Source: Tubiluchus corallicola
Taxonomy: Eukaryota; Priapulida; Priapulimorpha; Priapulimorphida; Tubiluchidae
NCBI GenBank assembly: GCA_030141605.1
Contig: JAQGDQ010000156.1
Location: 372,001 to 436,000, forward strand
Direction: 5' to 3'
DNA length: 64,000 nt
A model generated the notes under the pieces. That model made no database searches, had not been told where the DNA came from, and worked only from the letters and a program-made list of their open reading frames with translations. This document shows, one piece after another, positions 16,101 through 61,900 of this stretch; position 1 is the stretch's first letter; the number at the start of each line of letters is the position of its first letter. The position numbers and the translations under genes are program-made.

Positions 16101-19100
16101 TATTATGAGTTATTTTTTTCGGGTAATGTAGTATTTGACAGGTATATTATATTGCTTTGCCAATGTACATTGTATGCATTTGTGCAAATAAAACTGAATT
16201 GAATTGAATGAATTAAATTATAACTTGTGGCGTAATCTATCAGAGTTGTGCATCTCATTTATTAGGTGTAATAGTCTCTGTAGTTAGTGTGTTTGATGAA
16301 AATTCATACTTATAACATTTAAACATATGTGACTTTTAAACTTTTCGCTCCCACTAGGGGAGAACATATATCAGTTGTAAAACTGTCTGTTTCAAACCTA
16401 TATGTTACACCTTCAATAAATTATGTTTAAACCAAACTTATGTGAAATAGTAACAGTAAATTCATACATAACAATGCCGTATAAGTTACAATGGCATGTT
16501 TCCTCTGGAATTATGCTTCTCCTGTCTTGAAAGTATTTTGGGTAAAAGTAGGAAATGGGTAAATTGCATGAAGTGGGCACCCTTCATAATAAATATCTGT
16601 TTCTTTTCAGTGCTGGAACACCTGTTGGGAAGCACACCACTCAAGAACAATGCCGTGGTGACAGCTGCTGCCTTCTGTGTGTGCGACGCAGCATAAGTGA
16701 CAGTGGCTTGTGCTTGCCCTGGAATTACGCTTCTCCTCTTATGCACTTGAAGGTATTTTGGGTAAAAGTTGGAAATGGGGCATAAGCATCGATGACCTTT
16801 AACTTTACTTTGCTTTTAACATTGCTTTGTTTAAAATAGCCATTGCATATTTATAGTAATTCACTTGTTATTTTTCTGATTGTCATTTTACCTCTTTCTG
16901 CAGACATTTTTGAAAATGAAATCATTTGTGTGGAAACGGAAAGCTAACGAGAGGCGCCTTGCCAATCAGCGTGCTAGCATCCGTCATTGAGCCGCATGAT
17001 GGATGAATAACCGCGGAAAATAATTTGACAGAAAAACATTTTATATGTTAGTGAATTGATGCTTGTTTAGTGCGTGTGCAATCTAAACTATTGCCTTTAT
17101 TGTCAAGGAAAGAAGACAGTGATCACATGTTTTACTGAAAATGTAACGTCATTTTTAGGGGAGGATATGAAGCCAAACAAACATTTAGCATTTTAGATGA
17201 ACTCTTCTACAGGCTATTGTGATTACTTAATACAAATGTTGTTGTTGGCCGTAAATAAACAAAAAATGTTTTTGTATCCATTTGTTTATTTTAATTGGTT
17301 TTATTCTGCCCCAACACCTAACAACACACCATGCTTTGCAGCCGGGCTTCCCAAGTTCCAGCTTTTAGCTCAGCTGCAAGCAGTTACATCATTTGTTCAC
17401 TAATAATTGACTGTTCACTTGACAAGTAATTGTAGTAATTTTTGTTTTCAGTTTGTATAAATGTATGTAGTACATCTGATCATGTAATTGTAATGGTGTT
17501 TTTGTCTAATAAACGAAAAAAATGTATAATGATGTATAAATGAACTAGTAGATTGAATTTTTGAAACTTAACTTGATCGAAAGTGAAACCCGAATTTGAC
17601 CGAGATCGATTCTGAATTTGATCTAAAATTATAAGTCAAATGCCACTGCCTTGTACGTCACAACCACTTTTAACCGGGGCAACACTTGATTCAGTCCCAA
17701 CATCCCGCATTTCTGAATGTTAGTTTACTGACGCTAGAGGAATGATTTTTTTTTTGCTAATCAATATAGAGTAACTGGAAGGAATTTACAATTCCCCCAC
17801 ACAATTTAAATACCTTAACTCTAACCTTAACCCTAACTCTGACCCTAACCCTAAACTCTAAAACCCTAACCCTAAAATTAACCATGAACCTAACTCTAAC
17901 CCTAGCACTTCATGAACTAATTTCTTGGGGAATTGTAAATTTATTAATTAATTGTACTGTTATAATTATTATGTTAATGGCAAGATAAATATTATAAGGA
18001 AAATAGGCCTGCTTAAACTTGTGTGAGTTCCGTACTGATGGATTCTTTGTGAGTTCTGCCCTTGTGGATTTAGTTGACATTTTTAAGCGTATAAGTGAGG
18101 CAATATATTGAGGCTATCGATTGTAAATTTTATGTACCAGAGATGATTTTAGTAAACGTCCCACGGAGTATATATAATTCTCATTTCTATGTGATCTCCT
18201 TGAATTGCAAATCAATATTTAGGATCGAGCTTTAAGGAATATATCAGTTTATGCAAAGTGGACCGCGTTCATTTCTTCCGGAATCCATTCCTGAGAGCCA
18301 AAATTGAATATTTATTATTTGTATAATCGACTGATACGGTTGAAGCGGACATATTGAGCGGTTATCAGCATAACCAGACACTAGTAGCTAAACAGTTTAT
18401 TGACAGCAAACAAATTTTGCTTTAATGTCTGCACCGTTTTTATCAGTTGATTATTACAGCATGTAATTTCAGTGACTGTTTTTGTATTAATTGTGTGAAA
18501 GTTTTTCTTTAAGTGTATTGGACCATATTATTCTGTTCTTTCTCTCCAGCAAGCTTTACATATTTATATCAAAGGATTAATACATGAAACTCGTATACGT
18601 AAAAGGAGAAATACATAAAAGTCGGAATTTAAACTGACATGATATAAAATTATTGAAAAATTGTTAATTTTATGTCGTGTCAGTTCAAATTCTCATTTTT
18701 ATAAGATTTTGTTAGCTAAATTTTGCTTTTACAAGTTATACGTATTTTTTCCTGTGATATAAGTAGATAAGTTTGAAGAAACATGAATATACATAACCCA
18801 ATATCAAGCAATGCAAAAAGATAATCTAGTTTTTAATACGTAACTACAAAAATTCATAAAGTTTTTTGGATTATTTGACAATGGCAGTGTTGTTTCCTGA
18901 AGAAAAGACTAGATTTTCTAGAATTTTTTCAAGTGATTGCCTTAAAAGTTGCTTTGTTGAATTTAATGCAATAGTGTTAATAATATTAATGTGTTTGTTT
19001 CACTTTTTTTCTGCAGAAGGAACTCAGCTTTGGTTCAGCAAGAGGCAGGTATGGATTAAAAATAACATTTAGATATTTTTTCTTGTTGTTGTTGTTGGTT

Positions 19101-46900: not shown

Positions 46901-49900
46901 GACATGCAGTGCAATATTCCTTTTCTTAAACTTTTTTAATGTTACGTACTTCTGCACAAAAAATTTTACAAAACCCTTGGCACCTGTTTTGTCTTTGATC
47001 CAGTCACGATGCAATGTTTCATCGAATATTTTTAGTTCTGTAGCTACATTACTTTACAAAGAAAAACTGTCCTGCAGTGTGGTTTTTACTTTATGCGCAG
47101 AAACCTGAAGTTTTTGCGTTTCTTTTTTCTTTATTGACCAAATTCTCAAATTAGCTGTTTGCTTTTGTAAGAACGTGGAGAAAAATCGATGTTATTGCGT
47201 TGTGCGCATGTTGTCGCGTTAGAGCCTCGGGCTCCCTGCGGTGCACAAAGAGAAAACCTTTGTAGCAACAGTCACACTAACATACACATTGACTTAGAAA
47301 AGGTTTGCTGGGAATCCAATTTTGCCGGTTAATGGACACGTCATTCGCACGGTGCGCCAAACCTGTTTGCTAGTTGGTAATCTCATTGATCAGATTAGGG
47401 GAAGCCAACGAAGCCACATCTTCCTCCACATCTGTCACTTACATGTGATGGAAACACAATTTGACGCCTACAACTTCCCCACATTAGTACATTTACTTTA
47501 ACATCTAGCAAAAAATCGAAACTCTCGATTGAGCATCGCATTTTTCAAGTTTTTTTTATTGCCGCAAATTAATTGCAGTTGACGTATGCGACAATGCGGT
47601 GCCGTGTAGGCATTTTCAAATTACAGTTTTCGTCAAAGTTTCTTGCAAATTTTTAACTTAATTTACTACATGAATCACACTACACATGCAACATTAAAAC
47701 ATGCACGTGTGTATGGAATGGCTTTTATGGCTTCAAAGCATTACTCACTAGGTATTTTATAGCAAAAATTGCTTATTAAAAACATGAACACATTGATGTC
47801 ACTTGTGTGAAATGAACACATTGATGTGACTTGTGGAAATGAACACATTGAAGTCACTTGTGTGAAATAAACACATTGATGTGACTTGTGTGAAATGAAC
47901 ACATCGATGTCACTTGTGGGAAATGAACACATTGATGTGACTTGTGTGAAATGAACACATTGAAGTCACTTGTGTGAAATAAACACATTGATGTCAGTTG
48001 TGTGAAATGAACACATCGATGTCACTTATGGGAAATAAACACATTGATGTCACTTGTGTGAAATGAACACATCGATGTCACTTGTGTGAAATGAACACAT
48101 CGATGTGACTTGTGTGAAATGAACACATCGATGTCGCTTGTGTGAGATGAACACATCGATGTCACTTGTGTAAAATAAACACATCGATGTCGCTTGTGTG
48201 AAATAAACACATTGATGTCGCTTGTGTGAAATGAACACATCGATGTCGCTTGTGTGAAATGAACACATCGATGTCGCTTGTGTGAAATGAACACATCGAT
48301 GTCGCTTGTGTGAAATGAACACATCGATGTCGCTTGTGTGAAATGAACACATCGATGTCGCTTGTGTAAAATGAACACATCGACGTCGCTTGTGTGAAAT
48401 GAACACATCGATGTCACTTGTGTAAAATGAACACATCGATGTCACTTGTGTGAAAGACTACAATAGTTTTACTTGTATATTAGAAGTTTGTTGGCTTTAG
48501 TGTCATTCGTTTGGATGACTTCTTGAGATAGTTCAGTTGTATGTTTAGAGTCGTCCCATAAAAAACTAGAAATGGTGTAAGAAGTTGTCTGAAGTACGTC
48601 TTTGTGAAATTTTTATTGCTTCCCTTTTATACGACAAATGTAAAGAAGCCAAATGTTGTGTTTTGTTGTTATATTTATGTCCCAATTGCAGATAGTAAAA
48701 ACTGATACAGCGAGTAATTGTCTGTCTGTTCATCTTAAACATCGTCTTTTTTGGTGTTCACTTAGGCCACACAGCAGATGGAGGAACGTTTGCAAGCCTT
48801 CATTGATAACAACAGGGACATCGAAACGCTGACCGACACGACCGCTCGCTTTGTCCATCATCAGGTGGTCGAATTGGCGCGTGACTGTCTGGTCAAGTCG
48901 CAGGAGAAACATATTACTAGTCGATATTTTTATGAGCTTGTTGAAAATCTGGAGAGGCTGCTTTGTGATGTAAGTCTCTTCTATTCCAATCAGTACTTTG
49001 TGGAAGCTGTAAGTTAAAGGAAGACATATCACAGCAATTAATGTAGCATTCAAGCATTTGTTTGATTCCTTGTTTTCCTTTGTATCACTTATTGCTAATC
49101 ATTCTTGTCTGGTCTTCTTTATGGTTGTTATGGTCTTCTTTAGCTTTGTTTTTCTGTTTAGGCAGTCTGTAACGTTTAACAGTTGACATGTTACTTATGC
49201 AGCGGTTTGAAATGGTTAATTCTTTTAATACCGTCATACTAGTTTTTTTGTATTAAAAAGTGATTGCTTTTGAAATAAGTTTTCTTCTGATTCATTATTG
49301 TGTAAGCAAATGTTCTTGAAATGCACAACATTAGAGTTTGTTGCTTTTACTTGTAAAATATTTTATTTCGTTTTGCACTTTCACAAAAGCTCAATCAATG
49401 TCTAAATAAACAGCTTTAAAACTTTATTGTTTTATTTTCTGTTTTCACATGGACCCAATCAAGGTCTGAATCAGTGACTTTAAAATTTTGCTGTTTTATT
49501 TTCTGTTTCACATGAGCCCAATTAAGGTCTGAATCAGTGGCTTTAAAATTTTCCCGTTTCATTTCCTGTTTTCACATGGACCCAATTAAACTCTGAATCG
49601 GTGGCTTTAAATTCATACTATTTCATTTCTGTTCCCACAGGCTCAATCAAGGTCTGAATCAGCGGCCGCTCACATTCATCAGCTCAGTAAGAAACTGCTC
49701 ATCATTGTCTCACGACCAGCACGACTCTTGGAGTGTTTGGTGAGTCATTTCAACTCTCTAATTCAGGTCTTCAGAGGGATGGTGATGGTAATGTTTGTGA
49801 GGTGTGTTTAATGACTGGCATCATACAAATTTGAATCTGTATGAAGTCTGAATCTAAATAAAGTAAAATTCCAAGTTAATAAATCAACATTGACTTCATT

Positions 49901-52900
49901 CTGGTGTGTCTTCAGTCTCAAAATAAGTTACGTAAACTACAGCTTGACATTTCCAAGCAACAAGTAAAGTTATGTTGATTTTAAAATCCTTTTTACCATT
50001 TTGTTTTCCAGGAGTTTGACCCAGAAGAGTTTTACCACTTGCTAGAAGCGGCTGAAGGGCAGGCGAAGTTTGAACAGGGCGTGGTAAAGCCCGATATACC
50101 CAAGTACATCATTACGAAACTCGGGCTGAATAGAGATCCGCTTGCAGGTGAGTGTGGTGACCTAACTATACAAATGAAACTGTTGAACTTAGTGGATTAT
50201 TAACTACCATTGGTGGCTGTTAAGAAGGGTTTCCAACCTCCTTAATTGAAACCGCCAGCCCATTCAATTGGTTTTGCAAACATGTATTTATATCATTTGT
50301 TTCTTTCCTTCTTTGTGTTTGACATGTTCCACTTTTTTATGTGCGTATCTCTAGAAGCGATTTTGCAATTTTTGTTTAAACAATGACTGTAAACACAGAA
50401 GAGAGTTAACACGTCTTCATTACTGCTTGTACACTTTTTTCCAATTTGAAGAAAGATGACATGAAATCAGGCTTATCTAGAACTTACATTGATAACAACT
50501 CATGTACAGTATGTAGCAAGTAAGAAGGAAAATTAATATTAATATTCTGTTTGAGACGAACTCTTAAATATGAATAGTATGCCATTGCATTTTTGTTATA
50601 TTTATTACATTTTTGCTAATAAGCCTTTTCACAGTTCCAGCTATTGATGATGATCGTGAAAAGGTCAAAGGTTAATTGTACTAGATAACATATTTGTGTA
50701 CACTTGGCAGAGCCTCATAGTCCAAGCTACTATAATAGTAAACTGATGCTACAGAAGGCTTTGTTTTACAGACACGTAACATGACAGTTGTAGCTAAGAC
50801 ATGTTGCTGTGGTACTCTTAACCTTTGACCTGCAGCAACTGCGAGTGAGCACCACAAAACTGTGAAAAGGTTTATTGGTTTCAGTTCAGTAACAATCATT
50901 TTGGACATGCAGTGTTTATGTTAGAATAATGTGAATGTTTTTGCTTCAATTTACAGTTGCTCAAACAAAAAAAACTTGCTTAATGCTCACAATCTCAATG
51001 AAAAATGAATATATCTTTTGTTCTTTCTGGTCCCTAGACTTAAACCTAGTCAGCCTACCGTTAATCCACTATTTGTTGTACTTCATCAAACTTAAAACAC
51101 TTAATTTAATATAAAAAGTATTTTGCTTTTAAATATTTGCACAGATGATTTACGTGTGAATTGTTTATGTTTCAGACATTGCGGCAGATTTGAAAGATGA
51201 TGACAGCGGTCGACCGGACACGCCGGACACGGATGAATCTGCCGGAGCCGAGGGAGGAAAACCGCCCACGCCCACTCTGAAAGAAGATGATTTCGAGTCT
51301 GTCAAGTTAATCAGTAATGGCGCATATGGGTGAGTTGGATGTTTAACAGTGTTATGCCTCTGGGAGTTAGAATGCCTTGCTGTGTGCAAACAAGCGTCTT
51401 GTACTTCATTTGCTGACAGATTCATAATTAAGTGCTCATTAGCACTTGGCAACTTGTTAATGAAGCAGTCCACGCCTTGATTAATAGTAGACTGTGTCTA
51501 TTCATTATCACATTTCACTTTGCAGTATATTGATTCCCTGTTACACTGACTACTAGCGTAAACACACAAGCGTAATACGCATAGCAACTTGTACCGTTAT
51601 GCTTGGATGTAATTTGCATTCAGCTGCTAATTCTTTTCAAGTTATACCAATGAGTCAAAATGAAGTCAGTGATTAAAATACATGCAATGGTGTGCTATTT
51701 ATAACAGTTATGTAGAATGTTCAATTTGATTCTTTGACGGAAAGGGCAAGTCACTTAGCATGTTGTGTTTATTTTGCTATTGTCACTGAAACTTACAAAA
51801 GAGCATAAAGTTAAATTACACTATCGCTGTATGAAAAACGCCACGTAGCCGCCATTCACTTAAAAATTATGATGTAACTGGTTGACTTTTCGGAAGCACA
51901 TCTTGACTTTCCGTAAGCATGCAGTGCTTAAACCAATTCAAACTTCTGCTTCTAACCTAATGTTCATACAAAAACATCATGGAATTAGCTATCTGCAAAA
52001 ATTTATTATACTTTTAATGAAAACTGACAGTGTGCTTCTTTTCTTCAATCGATTAACAGTGTCATTGGTAGAAGAGTTGGCGCTAAAAATTGGAGTGCCC
52101 AGGCATGAAATGATTTTTCTAATTACATGACATATTATTACACCTTTATTACTAAATATTTCAAACATTTTTCGCAAACACTGAAATATACCTGATTTCC
52201 CAGAAAGTTTGATTTTTCCTTTAAGTGTATTGTCAGTCAGTATATTTTATTTTTTAACTGTAATTCACTACGAGTTTTTCTCTTTTTCCTTTGACTTTCC
52301 TTGAATAGGGGCAGAAATTTCTTAACACTTTACCTAATTCTGAGACCTTTGTCAAGTAATTAAATGTGTTCTTTGAAACTACGTTTGACAAGTTTCGGTG
52401 TACACAGGTGCTTCAGACCGTTGCTGCTTGTATTGTATTACTAAAATTGTAATTGTGAGCATTAAGTGGTTAATTGTGTGTTGTTTAATTTGCACCACTT
52501 TAGCTGCTTCTCCCCATACAGTTTGGTTATACAATCTCCTGTTATTATTTCTTGTCCTCGCAGCCTTGTCCTCATAATCTTAATACTAATATAAAGTGTA
52601 AACTATTTATTCCTATACATCGTAAATAAATAATAATTTTAGAGCATAAAATAATGAATTTTATTAGAGGAGAGTAGGTCTTCTGTCAGTTTTTGCCAGT
52701 AAACTGATTTCTAATTAGTGCAGCAAAGTCCAATTACTGGTGCTTGTTGACAGATGCATTGGCAATTAATTACGCCGTACCTTGAGGACTTTCTATTAGT
52801 AGATAAATTTAAGTGTGACAGCTATACAGTCAGCGGCTCTAGTCCCTTTTAAGGTTACATTTAGCTAAACTTGATAACTTTTTCAAATATAAAAGGAGCA

Positions 52901-55900
52901 GTTTTTCTCTTTGCGTCTTCCCAACACTTAAAAATTTTGCATATTTTGATGTAAGTTTTTTATTGCGTTGAAATGTATAGTGTTGTAGTGTCATATGTAT
53001 GTACACTGACTGTAAATTTTAATTGATCAAAATTAAACTAAATTAAATTTGTTTCTTCTTGGCTGAACTATCTCATTTTGGTTTAATTGTCTAAAGTATT
53101 GACTGTAGTTATTTTCATATTTGACCAAAAATTACTGGTTTTAAAACGTGAATTTTATAACAGCAGGTGGCGTATGTTTTGTAAAGCAATTTTGCCACTA
53201 ATGACACAAGGGAAATACCCTACTTCATCTCTTGTCGCAAAGTATCTAATAGAGTGAAAGTTTTAACACTTGGAAAATTTTTGTCTTAATTTTGTAATTT
53301 AAGGTTCTTAATTGATATAGCATAGTTTTAGCAGATGGAGCTAATGTAGAACTGATGTAAAGAGTGTTGGTATTTGTAACTCACCATATTTTGTAATTGC
53401 AGTGCTGTGTGGCTAGTCAGACAGAAGAAAACAAGGCAGAGATATGCTCTGAAGAAAATAAACAAACAAAATCTTGTGCTGAGAAATCAAATTAATCAGG
53501 CTTATGTTGAAAGAGACATCATGACGTTCACTGATAATCCGTTTGTTGTGACCATGTTTGGCACTTACGAAACAAAGGTAAGAGCATTTCTAAATTTAAT
53601 GCAGTAGACTAGTTTGTTTTGCATCCTGCAGGCTGGAATCCGGTGCTTAGGACAGTATATACTTAATTCAGATAGTTGTGGTGGGACCAGGACGTAGCAC
53701 ATTATCAAAAATGGTCCTATAAGTTGAGATCCTGAATTGCCATAGGTGCTTTTGCCATTTTTGGATACGTTTACCGTCTCTCTGAGCAAGAGGTATATAC
53801 ACAAGTAGAGTAGCAGATGAAAGTACCCTAATATAGTTTTTTTGTCATCACCATCCACTTACTAATCTGCCCTACGTTGCTTAACTTTGAATCAAACATG
53901 CATGACAACCAGTTAGTTATTCTCTTTGCTAAGATGTCAGCTTAATGAGATTGAATAATGAGATTGCTTAATGAGCTTAATGATAAAGTGAATAGAAGAT
54001 GGTAAGCTGTTATTTCTGCATTACTGTTTCTTCCTTTTTAAATCAATTATAAATTCATTAAAGTTATAAATTCCTTTCTGAAAAGGTAGAAAATGGATTA
54101 ATTCTGTTATTAAAAATCTTGTTTTTACATTCTAGAAACACTTATGCATGGTAATGGAGTTCGTGGAAGGTGGCGATTGTGCGACTTTGCTGAAGAACAT
54201 GGGCCCGCTGCCCCTCGACATGGCTCGCATGTACTTTGCGGAGACGGTGCTGGCATTGGAGTATCTTCACAGCTACGGCATTGTTCATAGAGACTTGAAG
54301 CCAGATAATCTTCTTATCACTTCCGAAGGCCACATTAAACTAACAGACTTTGGTTTATCGAAGATGGGACTGATGAGCTTAACAACTAACATGTATGAGA
54401 TTTTTCTTGATAAGGACACGAAACAGTTTAACGACAAGCAAGTCTGCGGCACCCCGGAGTATATTGCACCGGAAGTTATTCTTCGACAAGGGTATGGAAA
54501 GCCGGTGGATTGGTGGGCCATGGGGATCATACTTTATGAGTTCCTGGTGGGCTGTGTTCCGTTCTTTGGTGAGACCCCCGAGGAATTGTTTGCTCATACA
54601 ATTAATAGTGATATTGAGTGGCCCGAAGACGAATACGCCCCACCGGAAGATGCTCAGGACTTGATAAGATGTTTGCTGCAGCAGAATCCCATTGACCGAC
54701 TGGGCACCGGGGGTGCACAGGAGGTCAGAGAGCATCGGTTCTTTGAAGAACTTGACTGGGAGAGTCTGCTGAGACGTAAAGCTTCTTTCGTACCACAACT
54801 GGATGACGAAGAGGACACAAGTTATTTTGACAGTGAGTAGCTTAATCTGTGTTACCTTATAGAAGGTTGCAGTTATTTAATTTGCGATTAAACAGTAGTG
54901 CAAATGAATTTACATAAACTTGGATATATACGACAATTTTTTATTACAACTTTTCAAATGGATTTGATTGCACCACCTTCTCATATTGATAAATGCCTAC
55001 AGTTTGTGAAATTCATTATTTTGCTTTCAGTGGCATAAAGCACAATCCTCATTCCACACCAAAAAATAATTATCGGCTTTATATGCAAAGCTAGAAGATA
55101 GAGGCTAGCAGTGATATTTAACTTTTTTCAGCTCGGGCTGATCGCTATTGCCATGATGGTGATTCTGAAAATGACGATGTGGACGACAACGTTGTCTTTG
55201 GCAGCTTTTCGTCATGTTCTCCGCGTTATTCACGGGTCTGTTCCCGCACTGATTCAGAGGGCGGTGGAGATGAGGTAGGTCTATCTTTGTAAAAACGGAT
55301 TTAGATGGCTTATACAATAGCGAAATTGTTATATGAATAATATCTGTGACTTTGCTGTTCTAACAAATTTCTACTTGCCCAATTTTTAAACAGGGTTTCC
55401 ACGGTCAGAGTAAATCCTTGAAAATTCTTGTAAATACAGGCTATCCTAGAAAGTGATGGAAAAGTCAGGGAAAAAATAATTTGGAAAAAAATCAGGGAAA
55501 ATGATAAACATGGAGCGAAAAGTCGAGGAAATTGGAAAGGGTTGCAAAAATAATCACCATGACCGATATTCTTGCAAACATATTTTCCAGCGATTCGTGT
55601 TCAAATAAAATTTTCTTATGGCAGGCTCCCAGTTTCGATTTCTGTTCCAAAAATGATGATTGGCCGACACATTATATTACCAGTACATGTATAAATGTCC
55701 ATACACAAAAATTTTTGAATAAACCTATTGGTAATGCAATTTCTGCTTATCTTCGTTATGGAAAATCAATATTTGGTCAGGGAAAGGTTATGGAAACTCT
55801 GTGAGAACCCAGTAATTGAATGCCGGTCATGAGTTTTGAGAAGAAAAGTAACCAAGTGACGAGCCAAATAACTTCCTTATGTGTTGATGCTTCATAAATA

Positions 55901-58900
55901 GATTCCATGACCAACAATTACAATTACATGCATGTATTTTTCACCTGTCTTTTCCCCATTTAACTGAAGTAGCTACATGTTGTACCTTGTGAAGTATTTG
56001 AGAACATTGTTTTTATAGACCTCTAAAGACTCCAGTTTGAACGATTCGAATGAATCGGGAACCGGGAAGCCAGTGTTGAAAAAAGTGAGCTCAAACACGT
56101 CCGAAGTCTCTGCTATATCCACTGATTCTGAGTCACGGAAAGGCAGCCAGTCTGAAGTATCTGAAGATGGCAGCACTAGTAGCGTGCCCAGTGTGCCGGT
56201 AGTTCGCACTACCGTGAAAGAAGTTTCTGAATCATCAGACAGGTGGGTGTTAGAAAATGCTGTTACTGTGGTCTTTTGTACCAATTCTCTTCCACAATGG
56301 TTTTGTATTACATTGCATTGGTAAAAATACACTGAACTGCAGGTTTAGAGTTCAAGTCTATTTATTTTAAGATGAATCGCTTTTCTGTTTCGACTGTTCC
56401 AACCATAACACTTAACCATAATCTTTTCCAATTGGCCAAACTTTGAAACATTTTAAAGCCTGCTTCACCAGAGACAGAGTGCATGAAAGATAAGAGTGTT
56501 TACAGAGTGACTGTCCAAAAGTTACTGCCTCTCTGTGTTAGCTTTTTCGTTACGTTTTTTAAGAGCAAAACGATTCACTGAATCAGGAAGCTTTTTTTAA
56601 CTAGGTGACATTCATGAGGTACCTCTTAGTACAAGCAATTACTAAGTCAATGTCCTAGTGACGATATTTTGTACAAAACAAGAAGCAGGAAATACTTCAA
56701 AACAACAGAAATCAATAATCCTATGACAATGTCATTTGATATTTATTTATTTAATATAATTGGGGCTGATTTGTGTTTGATTAGCTTGTTGTACTATTTA
56801 TACTCGTAGACTAGATTTTGTATGCACTGACTCAGTTTAAAGCAGTGTAAATTAAGTGTGGTTAAACTTCATCATTTCCACAAAAGTAACGTGTTAAGAT
56901 ATGATACCCTGTTTGATTTATAGTTGGTTGTACAATATTACTTGGGGAGAATATCAATGTTTAATTATTATTCATGGTTCCCACGGTCAGGGAAAATCGT
57001 AAAAAATCCTTGAAAATATCCTGGAAAGTCATGGAAAAGTTAGGCAAAAAGATAATTTGGTAAGAAGCCAGGGAAAATGGTGAAAATGGGACGAAAAGTC
57101 AGGGAAATTGGAAAGGATTGCTATAAACCTGATATTTTTTTCAAACATATTTTTCAGTGATTCATGTTCAAATAAAATTTTGCTATCGCAGGCTCCCAGT
57201 TTCAATTTCTGCTCCAAAAGTAATTATTGGGTTAAAAAAGTTTATTCAATGTGATTATTGTGATTTCATTAGCTTCTCTGCAACTGTGCTGAAGCATTAT
57301 ACAGTGTTCCCTCGCTACTTTGCGGTTCGTTTTTCGCGGACTCACTGTTTCGCAGGTTTTCTAAGAATATTATAAATCATAAAAAATTACCATTTACAGT
57401 AAACAGCGTATTTATTCGGCGGATGAATACACACCAAAAATGAAATGTAGTACTTACGCCCGCTTGAGATGCTACTTGCCGACGTGAAATTATACACAAC
57501 ACACAATTGGTTGATTGATATCCCAGTCGCTGATTGGCTCAGGCACCGTGGAATTTGTTTACTTGTTCTCTATTTGTGAAATTTTCGTTAGAGACTGAAT
57601 TTATTCAAGCCCTACGATGCCACCCAAACGTGTAAGTATTAAATAAGTATAGCGTCTCTACTTTGCGGAAATTCACTTATCGCGGGTGGGCCTGGAACGG
57701 AACACCCGCGATAAGTGAGGGAACACTGTTTATTTTGGTCAGGGAAAAGGGTCATGGAAATTTATTTCAAAATTCTGTGGGAACCCGTAGTATTCTATTT
57801 GCCAAACAGAATGTTCCAAATGTGTTGGCTTTCAGTGGAAATTATCAATGTTACTTATTCACCTTTTAGTGAAGTCAACAAAATAGTGTCTCACTCCACT
57901 CCCCAATCCGCAGTGGCCGACGAGCGACGGGAATCCAGCTCTTCACCGCAGCAGGTGACGCTCCGAGAGTCCCAGCAACAACAGCAACAGCAACAACAGC
58001 AGCAACAACAACAACAAGCCAATGGGAAAGATGCATTACCCAAGTTTTCCATCTCTGTGGAAGATGGCGGACGTGTGGAGCAGACCCTGCCACCAAAGGT
58101 AATTGCATCTTAATTTACTATTCAACTTACATAGTGGTTCTCTTACTTCAGCTCGGCTCTGTTCGTTCCGGGCTTCTTCTAGCAGTAAGAACTAGGTTTA
58201 TGTATATCACGTGAAATGTGTATTTAACTACAAGTGATTAAATGTAGTCAGGGGAGCTGCACTTGACTGTTAGTTCAGTGTAGAATAAAATTTAATTGTT
58301 TTAATAATCATATAAAGTACAAGTTTGTGCGTACCATTAAAATAGTTTTTTCATTTTCAGAAATTAGAATTTTTTTAGTACAAGAATTGTATTTTTAGGA
58401 GCTGTCACCTGTTGAAGAAAAAGAGAAAGAAAAAGAGGTCACAAAGGAGCCAGAGAGGAGCAGTTCGCCTGTGGTTAGAGGCGCTGTATTACGTAAGCCA
58501 AGATTAAAGGCTGCCATACCCAAGTCATCCTCGCATACAACATTGTCATTGGTTATACCAGATAGTAAGTACTTAGTTTAACCAATATTTTTATTTGATA
58601 AGAAACATTACCATCATAAGTACATTTATAATAAAAACAATGGACAAAAGCCTTTCAGAGAGTAGATACGTCATTTATAAGTTTAATAGGCACGATTACA
58701 AAAACTGTTATTTTTATTTATGCATTAAGCAAGAGCGAAATTGAAGTTTGTAACAGTAGTAAGACTTAACAAGTTAATCCTATTTTTGCCTTTTATACTC
58801 GCCTTTAATTTTTGAGAAAGTGTAGGTCTCTAGTATGTTTGTTGTTTCGTGTTTGTGTTTGTCTATCTGTCTTCTTCTGAGTGATTAGTAATTTTGTAAG

Positions 58901-61900
58901 AGCTTAGAACATACTTTTGTTGCTACATATGCACAAGCACTGTCAAGTCAGAGATTTTAACAAGCTTATGGTATTTTAGTTTGTCTAATGGTTTTGTTTT
59001 TCTCAGAGTTCAGTATACTTATTAACTTTATGTTGACGGATAATCAACTAATTTTTGCTTTACAGATGTGACACCACCAATTTGCTCACCAGGTGGCTCC
59101 AGTACCAGTTCTCGCGATGCCTCGCCAAGTCGTGAAATTCCGCTTGTCCAGCACTTACGACCGCCTATCATTATTAAAAAATCGGCCCGTGGTTTTGGTT
59201 TCACTCTGCAAGCAATTCGAGTGTACATGGGCGATTCTGATGTCTATACCATGCATCATTTGGTTTATGTAAGTTTTTGCTGTCGTATTTCTTTTTAGAT
59301 TAGAGAAATATTTCTATTGCCAAACTTATTACGTTTTGAAGTGAGCTATTTTGATAAGATTAAGATTTTATAGAATTGCTAATTATAATTTCGTATAATT
59401 TCAGGCGGTTGATCCAAATGGTCCAGCTTTTGAAGCGGGTCTGCGTCCCATGGATTTGGTCACTCATATTAATTCGGAATCTGTTCAGGGACTCATTCAT
59501 TCGCAGGTAAGCTTTCTCATTATATGATTATTGCAATCATTTAAGTACCAAAGGATTCTTTGTCTTAATGTTGCTGTTCTGATTGTGTTGGTTTCGGCTT
59601 TTCCAATTGCCTGGCTGGCTCTGAGAAAAGGCAGTGTGATATGCAATAAGAAATGCCATAAGTGCATTAAGCCCAGCTGACCTATGTTTGTTCCTGGTGC
59701 TTGACACTATATTCGGACAAACGGAGTCGATGATCAGAGAAGTAGATTATTCAACTTGACAGAAGTGAACACTGATTTACATTTGACAGAAAGATCATTT
59801 ATGATATGCATTCAAAATGCCCTGTTCTTTGAATCAAAAGTTCAAAGTTAAGATTAGAGAACGAATAAATAAATGAGTGAGAATGAGAATGAATGATTTA
59901 AATTTTTTAAAGTTGTAACTCAAAATGAGTGACAGAATTTGTTGCAGTCGTTGTCCTATAGTAGTAACAGGAGCCATACTCTTCAAGGGCATTGAAAAGG
60001 CAGTGGACAAAGTATGCAACCTTTATTTCACGTTTTGCACCAGCCATGAAATTTCTTATCAGTACTCGAACTTTTGTAGGTAGAGAAGGATTGGTATGTG
60101 TAAAAAAGAAAACATTAGTAGTTTTTGCTATTCTTTTTAAGGTGATTCGATTAATACTTTCTGGAGGACCAAGATTAAATGTCAGGGCAATACCTCTAGA
60201 CCAGACCTCTATCAAAACTGGAGCAAGAAAACGTAACCCAGGTCAAGGCAAAATGGCACGCAGTCGTGGTGGTTCTCGTCGCCGACATCACAAACGGAGC
60301 GAAACGGACAAACGAAGGCGGTCGTCATTATTTCGCAGGTACTTAACGTTTCGTTACAAAATTTACTTTAAATTTCTCCAACTCTTTGGGTATATTTGTC
60401 TCTAATCTTGCATAATATATTGTAGGTTGAGCAACAAGCGTGCAAGTGCTGAAGGGTTGTTGCCTGGTTCCCCAGTCATCACTCCAAGCAGGAGTTTTGG
60501 ATCATCACTCAACCGATCGCTGTCGTCTACAGAGAGCCTCTCCGGTTCCCCTACACGAGTGGGCAAATCTCCGCCGAGCAAAATACTGTCACCTCCCGAT
60601 TCCGCTCACTCTACAGGCACGTTATGAAAGTTAATACACTTATTTATTTATTATTTATTTGCTTGTTTATTTTTTTGCTCATTCATTTATTTATTCTTTA
60701 ACTTCTTGATTTGTAGATCCACATTTAAGCAAATTTCCATTTTTTTGTTTGTATGGAATTCATCGTAAAAATTGACATAGGATTAACTGATGTTCATTAC
60801 TACCAACTTCAATTAAATAGGAAATAATTCCGGATAAAATGGTAAAACAGTACGTACCGGTGTGAAAAAAGAAAATTAAAAGCAAAAAATTGTAGCTCGC
60901 CATCATCAATTAAAAATATAACAAGTTAGGAAAAGTAAAAACAACTGCATAGGAAGAAAAAAACAAGCACTGCACAGATAGTTCATTTCATCTGTTATTT
61001 TATAGCTGATTTTTTGCTTTTGAGACCCATTTCTCAAATGCTTCTCCTGAAATAAATAAATCAATTGGGAGGCTGTAAAGGGCATGCAATGTTTTATTCC
61101 TCTTAATGACGACAAGTTTTGGGTGATGTTTCATATTTTAAAAAATAATTCTATGTAGACTGTTAGTCTTAATAGATTAGTAAACTAATAAGTATTTATT
61201 TAATTTACAGGTAGCACATCATCTCAGAGCTCATCTCCTAGCTCCAGTGTTCCGAATTCTCCTGCAAACTCTACGCACTACAGTCAGCGACCTAGTTCAC
61301 TACACGGGCTCAAACACAAACTAGTTCAGACATTCCGATCTCCTCATCGACGAAAATCCGTCGGACATATTCCGCTGTCGCCGCTTGCCAGGACGCCGTC
61401 TCCGGGACCAGTTCCCACATCGCCAACCAGGTCACCCAGTCCGCTGGCTATGCCGCTAGCTGCAAATGTTGCTCACGTTCCGGGAAGCTCGTCTCACGCA
61501 CAACTTTTTCCTGCTCACATTGCTACGAATCCGGTGATTAAGCGGGCGTTAACACGGCCCAAGAGTCAGGACACACTGAACTCTGCATCGCCTCTCACAC
61601 GGGTGCGAAGGACCTCATCACCGGATCGTTTGCACCCTAGTTCCGCTATCACAATACCACCTGCAGTATCCATCACGGCACCGACTCCACCACCGCAGAA
61701 ACCTCCAGTTTTAAAAGAAGCATCTTGTGATCCTACTGAATCAAGCGAACTGCAAAAATCAGAGATCAAAGAAGGGCAGGCTGCTGCTGCCGCTCCTTCG
61801 ACCAAATCGGCAAAACATGCCGCATCGTCCACAGAGAAGAAAGAGAAATCTGAAAAGAAAACTAGTCCAAAGAGCGCCAAGCCTCCGAAGAGTGACTTCA

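Follow-up and report, generated by a model that had tools for sequence, protein, structure and literature searches.

A decayed minisatellite spanning the intron 9/exon 10 boundary of a protostome MAST kinase gene

The only MAST kinase gene found in this genome carries, upstream of exon 10, a short tandem array whose units repeat the end of intron 9 together with the start of exon 10. We regard this array, with considerable confidence, as a minisatellite born from that intron–exon boundary, most likely without function and removed with the intron. It belongs, as a decayed case, with the ‘mirage’ minisatellites of amphioxus and is not a new system. The presence of a boundary-spanning mirage in a protostome suggests that the process extends beyond lancelets.

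Three MAST kinase exons lie on the forward strand at 48766–50147 of the window, that is, of the whole 64-kb stretch of DNA analysed here, and their product of 146 residues shows matches to DUF1908 (E 5e-67) and to the human MAST1 and MAST3 structures. In the gene as a whole, DUF1908 (PF08926, E 5e-67) is followed by an AGC-type kinase domain (PF00069, E 3e-49), the combination by which we identify a MAST gene. No further DUF1908 locus turned up in the 343.5-Mb genome, and a search of the same genome for a second MAST paralogue that could serve for comparison found none. The junction 48969/49641 was placed by protein conservation, which gives the following features (exons numbered as in a preliminary description of this DNA):

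48766..48969, forward strand: exon 9, its last codon complete (phase 0) and followed by gtaagt; supported by DUF1908 and the human MAST1/MAST3 alignment
48970..49640, forward strand: intron 9, 671 nt, GT-AG, phase 0, its ends fixed by protein alignment
49641..49739, forward strand: exon 10, 99 nt; supported by DUF1908 and the human MAST1/MAST3 alignment

The array occupies 49350–49665 on the forward strand and consists of four intronic units at a pitch of 63–64 bp and a fifth in which the genuine acceptor is joined to the opening 25 nt of the exon. Each unit comprises some 38 nt of pyrimidine-rich intron end and then some 25 nt of exon start. The units are as follows, a slash marking the position homologous to the splice junction:

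49350..49413, forward strand: unit 1, with a pyrimidine tract, the dead acceptor AAAA/G and the exon-like segment 49389–49413 (20/25 identities to exon 10); the most diverged from units 2–4
49414..49477, forward strand: unit 2, with the dead acceptor ATGG/A and the exon-like segment 49453–49477 (21/25)
49478..49540, forward strand: unit 3, with the dead acceptor ATGA/G and the exon-like segment 49516–49540 (22/25)
49541..49604, forward strand: unit 4, with the dead acceptor ATGG/A and the exon-like segment 49580–49604 (18/25); contains no AG and adjoins the unit of the real acceptor
49605..49665, forward strand: unit 5, the genuine site, with a pyrimidine tract, CAG at 49638–49640 and the opening 25 nt of exon 10

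Three lines of analysis bear out the array that had been described upstream of exon 10. TRF reports a 64-bp period at 49392–49666 (4.4 copies, score 312), and a repeat finder run independently of it recovers five copies in register at a pitch of 64, 63, 64 and 61. When the first 25 nt of exon 10 are compared with intron 9 the best matches begin at 49516 (22/25), 49453 (21/25), 49389 (20/25) and 49580 (18/25), while in 2000 dinucleotide shuffles the best match was 17 and the fourth-best never exceeded 14. The five starts given previously (49389, 49453, 49516, 49580 and 49641) are all exact. Identity among the units is uneven: units 2–4 are 83–89% identical to one another (unit 2 against unit 3, 89%), unit 5 is 69–75% identical to the others, and unit 1 is 56–69% identical to the rest, its nearest relative being unit 5 (69%). 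The copies thus differ among themselves by 11–44%, which rules out a duplication artefact of the assembly. The predicted RNA structure of the array is ordinary (z −0.92) and a search of the window against Rfam gave no matches.

Two opposite histories could place one array unit at the start of an exon, and the protein sequence distinguishes between them. Exon 10 encodes AQSRSES, the counterpart of AYERSES in human MAST1 and of AHERSDS in MAST3, so that the motif A-x-x-R-S-E/D-S is common to all three. Because the encoded residues are conserved in human MAST1 and MAST3, the comparison indicates that the coding sequence is much older than the array and that the exon is its source. The preliminary description had likewise proposed that the exon is the source and that the array grew into the intron, and had named the 63-bp repeat elsewhere in the genome of relatives, without exon 10, as the finding that would speak for the opposite; DNA searches of the present 343.5-Mb genome, which can miss simple repeats and withheld stretches, found no other copy of the unit, so that the proposal is supported on both counts. 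Prokaryote and viral collections likewise yielded no relatives. Recruitment of an already existing intronic minisatellite as the exon start would explain why that start is one unit of the array, yet with coding sequence that predates the array and no further copies of the unit found in the genome this reading is scarcely credible, and we reject it.

Whether the intronic copies could still act as acceptors depends on what remains of their junctions. At the homologous position the genuine site reads CAG/G, whereas the four copies read AAA/G, TGG/A, TGA/G and TGG/A, so that the true AG has been lost in all four; retention of AG/GT signals, usual in mirages though not required of them, is not seen here. 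The AGs at 49388–49389 and 49515–49516, which had been taken for intact acceptors, are composed of the last intronic A and the first exon-like G; they fall one base late and lie in AAG and GAG contexts respectively, with a purine at −3. In an acceptor matrix built from the 18 other acceptors of the MAST gene, a small set scored by leave-one-out, they reach −7.9 bits (49389) and −4.0 bits (49516); the median is 6.3 among real acceptors and −2.5 among ordinary intronic AGs, of which 83% and 60%, respectively, equal or exceed these two values. The matrix is a blunt tool, in which the genuine acceptor itself reaches only 0.7 bits.

The array was previously read as decoy 3′ splice sites, and in its functional form this reading holds that the real acceptor faces competition from the copies, whose use brings on nonsense-mediated decay and so lowers or regulates MAST output. 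The early phase 0 stops noted downstream of the AGs at 49389 and 49516 do occur, and the observation extends to all seven AGs of the array, every one of which lies in units 1–3 and would lead to an in-frame stop within 0–9 codons; the use of any of them would therefore be costly. All copies retain their pyrimidine tracts, and an AAG acceptor appears to be used elsewhere in the MAST gene, at 60141. Against this, the true AG is gone in 4/4 copies, the displaced AGs, with A or G at −3, are matched or beaten by most ordinary intronic AGs, and splicing is normal in amphioxus mirages whose signals are better preserved (PMC3087553, PMC3902484). On these grounds we consider a functional role as poison acceptors improbable and the decoy claim weak; judged by their sequence, the copies look like acceptor fossils rather than competing acceptors.

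Unit 4 deserves separate consideration, as it falls within an unusually long stretch that lacks AG:

49538..49638, forward strand: AG-free zone of 101 nt that takes in unit 4 and lies upstream of the genuine acceptor AG; the longest among 19 acceptors checked in the gene

The last AG before the genuine one lies at 49536–49537, and at the other 18 acceptors checked the AG-free zones measure 4–85. In human exons AG-free zones of at least 100 are rare (about 0.6%) and can come from an AG-poor repeat, unlinked to splicing (PMC1431707). AGs newly arisen between branch point and acceptor frequently interfere with splicing (PMC7317903), so that selection keeping AGs out of unit 4 is plausible, and the pattern is suggestive of it; under a simple substitution model the chance of an AG-free unit 4 is 0.004–0.027, for a test chosen after seeing the data. 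However, the loss in unit 4 may be drift, because unit 1 has lost both of its homologous exon-like AGs too. With that loss and a post hoc test, a strong claim that AGs were purged was dropped. A more elaborate proposal, in which the array still changes copy number in this protostome, the unit nearest the exon is kept AG-free by selection and the farther copies, acting at a low level as poison acceptors, adjust MAST output from one individual to another, appears to us very unlikely. What the array does offer is a natural record of duplicated acceptors beside a conserved exon, in which pyrimidine tracts persist and AGs are lost, the loss being most complete in the copy situated where any AG would be in competition with the real site.

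Mirage minisatellites have been described in amphioxus at Adh3, the globins BflGb6 and BflGb9, TnC and PGBD5 (PMC3087553, PMC3902484). Like these, the MAST array consists of tandem units of minisatellite size that span an intron–exon boundary, the genuine one included, and its intronic copies carry relics of splice signals. The correspondence extends to the distribution of divergence, as the amphioxus globin mirage has a homogenized centre and diverged edges (PMC3087553) and here the inner units 2–4 are homogenized while the edge units 1 and 5 are divergent. The MAST copies look older, at 56–89% identity compared with 81–100% in BflGb6, and have lost the true AG throughout, whereas many though not all of the amphioxus copies keep AG/GT (PMC3087553). 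The host also differs, a protostome here and a lancelet there, which is a difference of occurrence and not of structure.

Less close relatives are known. In potato RdRp a duplication across intron 1/exon 2 involved a similar block of branch site, pyrimidine tract, acceptor and exon start, but there a single duplication gave rise to a new spliced intron (PMC4974935), while the four copies of the MAST array are decayed and nothing there points to a new intron. The potato case and the boundary-duplication route proposed for the amphioxus globins lend some precedent to the idea that an intron is being gained in MAST, the exon-like part of one copy becoming a mini-exon with a junction AG as acceptor and AAG/GTCTGA (units 2 and 3) as donor. 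Yet GTCTGA is a poor donor, the acceptors in the copies are dead and the units are interrupted by phase 0 stops, which together make intron gain in progress extremely unlikely. Internal tandem repeats in human segmental duplications, minisatellites averaging 30 bp and 4 copies, also lie on exon–intron boundaries but differ in being recent, variable in copy number and often associated with alternative transcripts (PMC2812944). As cited in PMC4526556, the minisatellite of IFI6 (6-16) overlaps a splice junction as well, there on the donor side and with its repeat units used as several splice donors (Turri, 1995). Our search of the literature on duplicated acceptor sites found nothing closer than these systems.

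We therefore return to an origin at the boundary itself. A single slippage or unequal-exchange event would have duplicated the intron 9/exon 10 boundary, and further exchanges would have amplified and homogenized the inner units 2–4, leaving the outer units 1 and 5 divergent. Splicing would have kept the exon-adjacent copy, the only one with the complete exon and its donor downstream; the other copies would have become intron and then drifted, and the copy lying between branch point and acceptor may have been kept free of AGs by selection. As unit 1 is closest to unit 5, the comparison suggests that the edges preserve the oldest state and that the centre was amplified later. Both the single-event origin and the age of the array are inferred from one genome. 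Most likely, then, the array is a by-product of slippage or unequal exchange that is spliced out whole.

Such an origin seems to call for no special mechanism because minisatellites are frequent in this window and, in a genome with numerous introns, some arrays should land on exon edges by chance. The 64-kb window holds about 11 distinct minisatellite arrays with periods of 15–130, and three array rows were recorded in 112.5 kb of kinase loci. By coordinates, no other array was seen to overlap a matched exon, either in those 112.5 kb or among the arrays of other MAST introns, with exon edges mapped in MAST only. The preceding MAST intron contains a minisatellite of 24 copies of 28 bp (47784–48455), and a degenerate, telomere-like ACCCTA array lies at 17812–17904 of the window.

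The host can be placed among the protostomes, and not with the lancelets, because its genome contains two mir-71/mir-2 clusters (contigs G000:C2054 and C1024), mir-2 being a protostome family; a let-7 is also present. Searches with COX1, GFP and GH6, likewise aimed at placing the host, gave no hits. Weaker mir-2-like matches on C1915, taken with the two clusters, suggest duplicated mir-71/mir-2 loci. Elsewhere in the genome a kinase-domain stretch (profile 64–263, score 95.7 each, one TAG) occurs six times, on C1974, C2072, C2074, C2107, C1752 and C1831, and is probably carried by a repeat or is a recent multi-copy pseudogene.

Several further features of the MAST gene were observed in the window. 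At 60610–61211 there is an apparent GC-AG intron, the reading H-S-T-G-S-T-S-S-Q requiring a splice from CTCTACAG/GCACGT to ttacag/GTAGCACATC, the donor of which would be GC, and at 60139–60142 the PDZ exon appears to use an AAG acceptor. A coding CAA/CAG run at 57973–58017 gives a glutamine tract in the MAST protein. Neighbouring MAST introns carry two copies, about 80% identical, of an interspersed repeat (55381–55663 and 56963–57230), and an element with ends near 57303 and 57730 is one that we take to be possibly Tigger/pogo-like.
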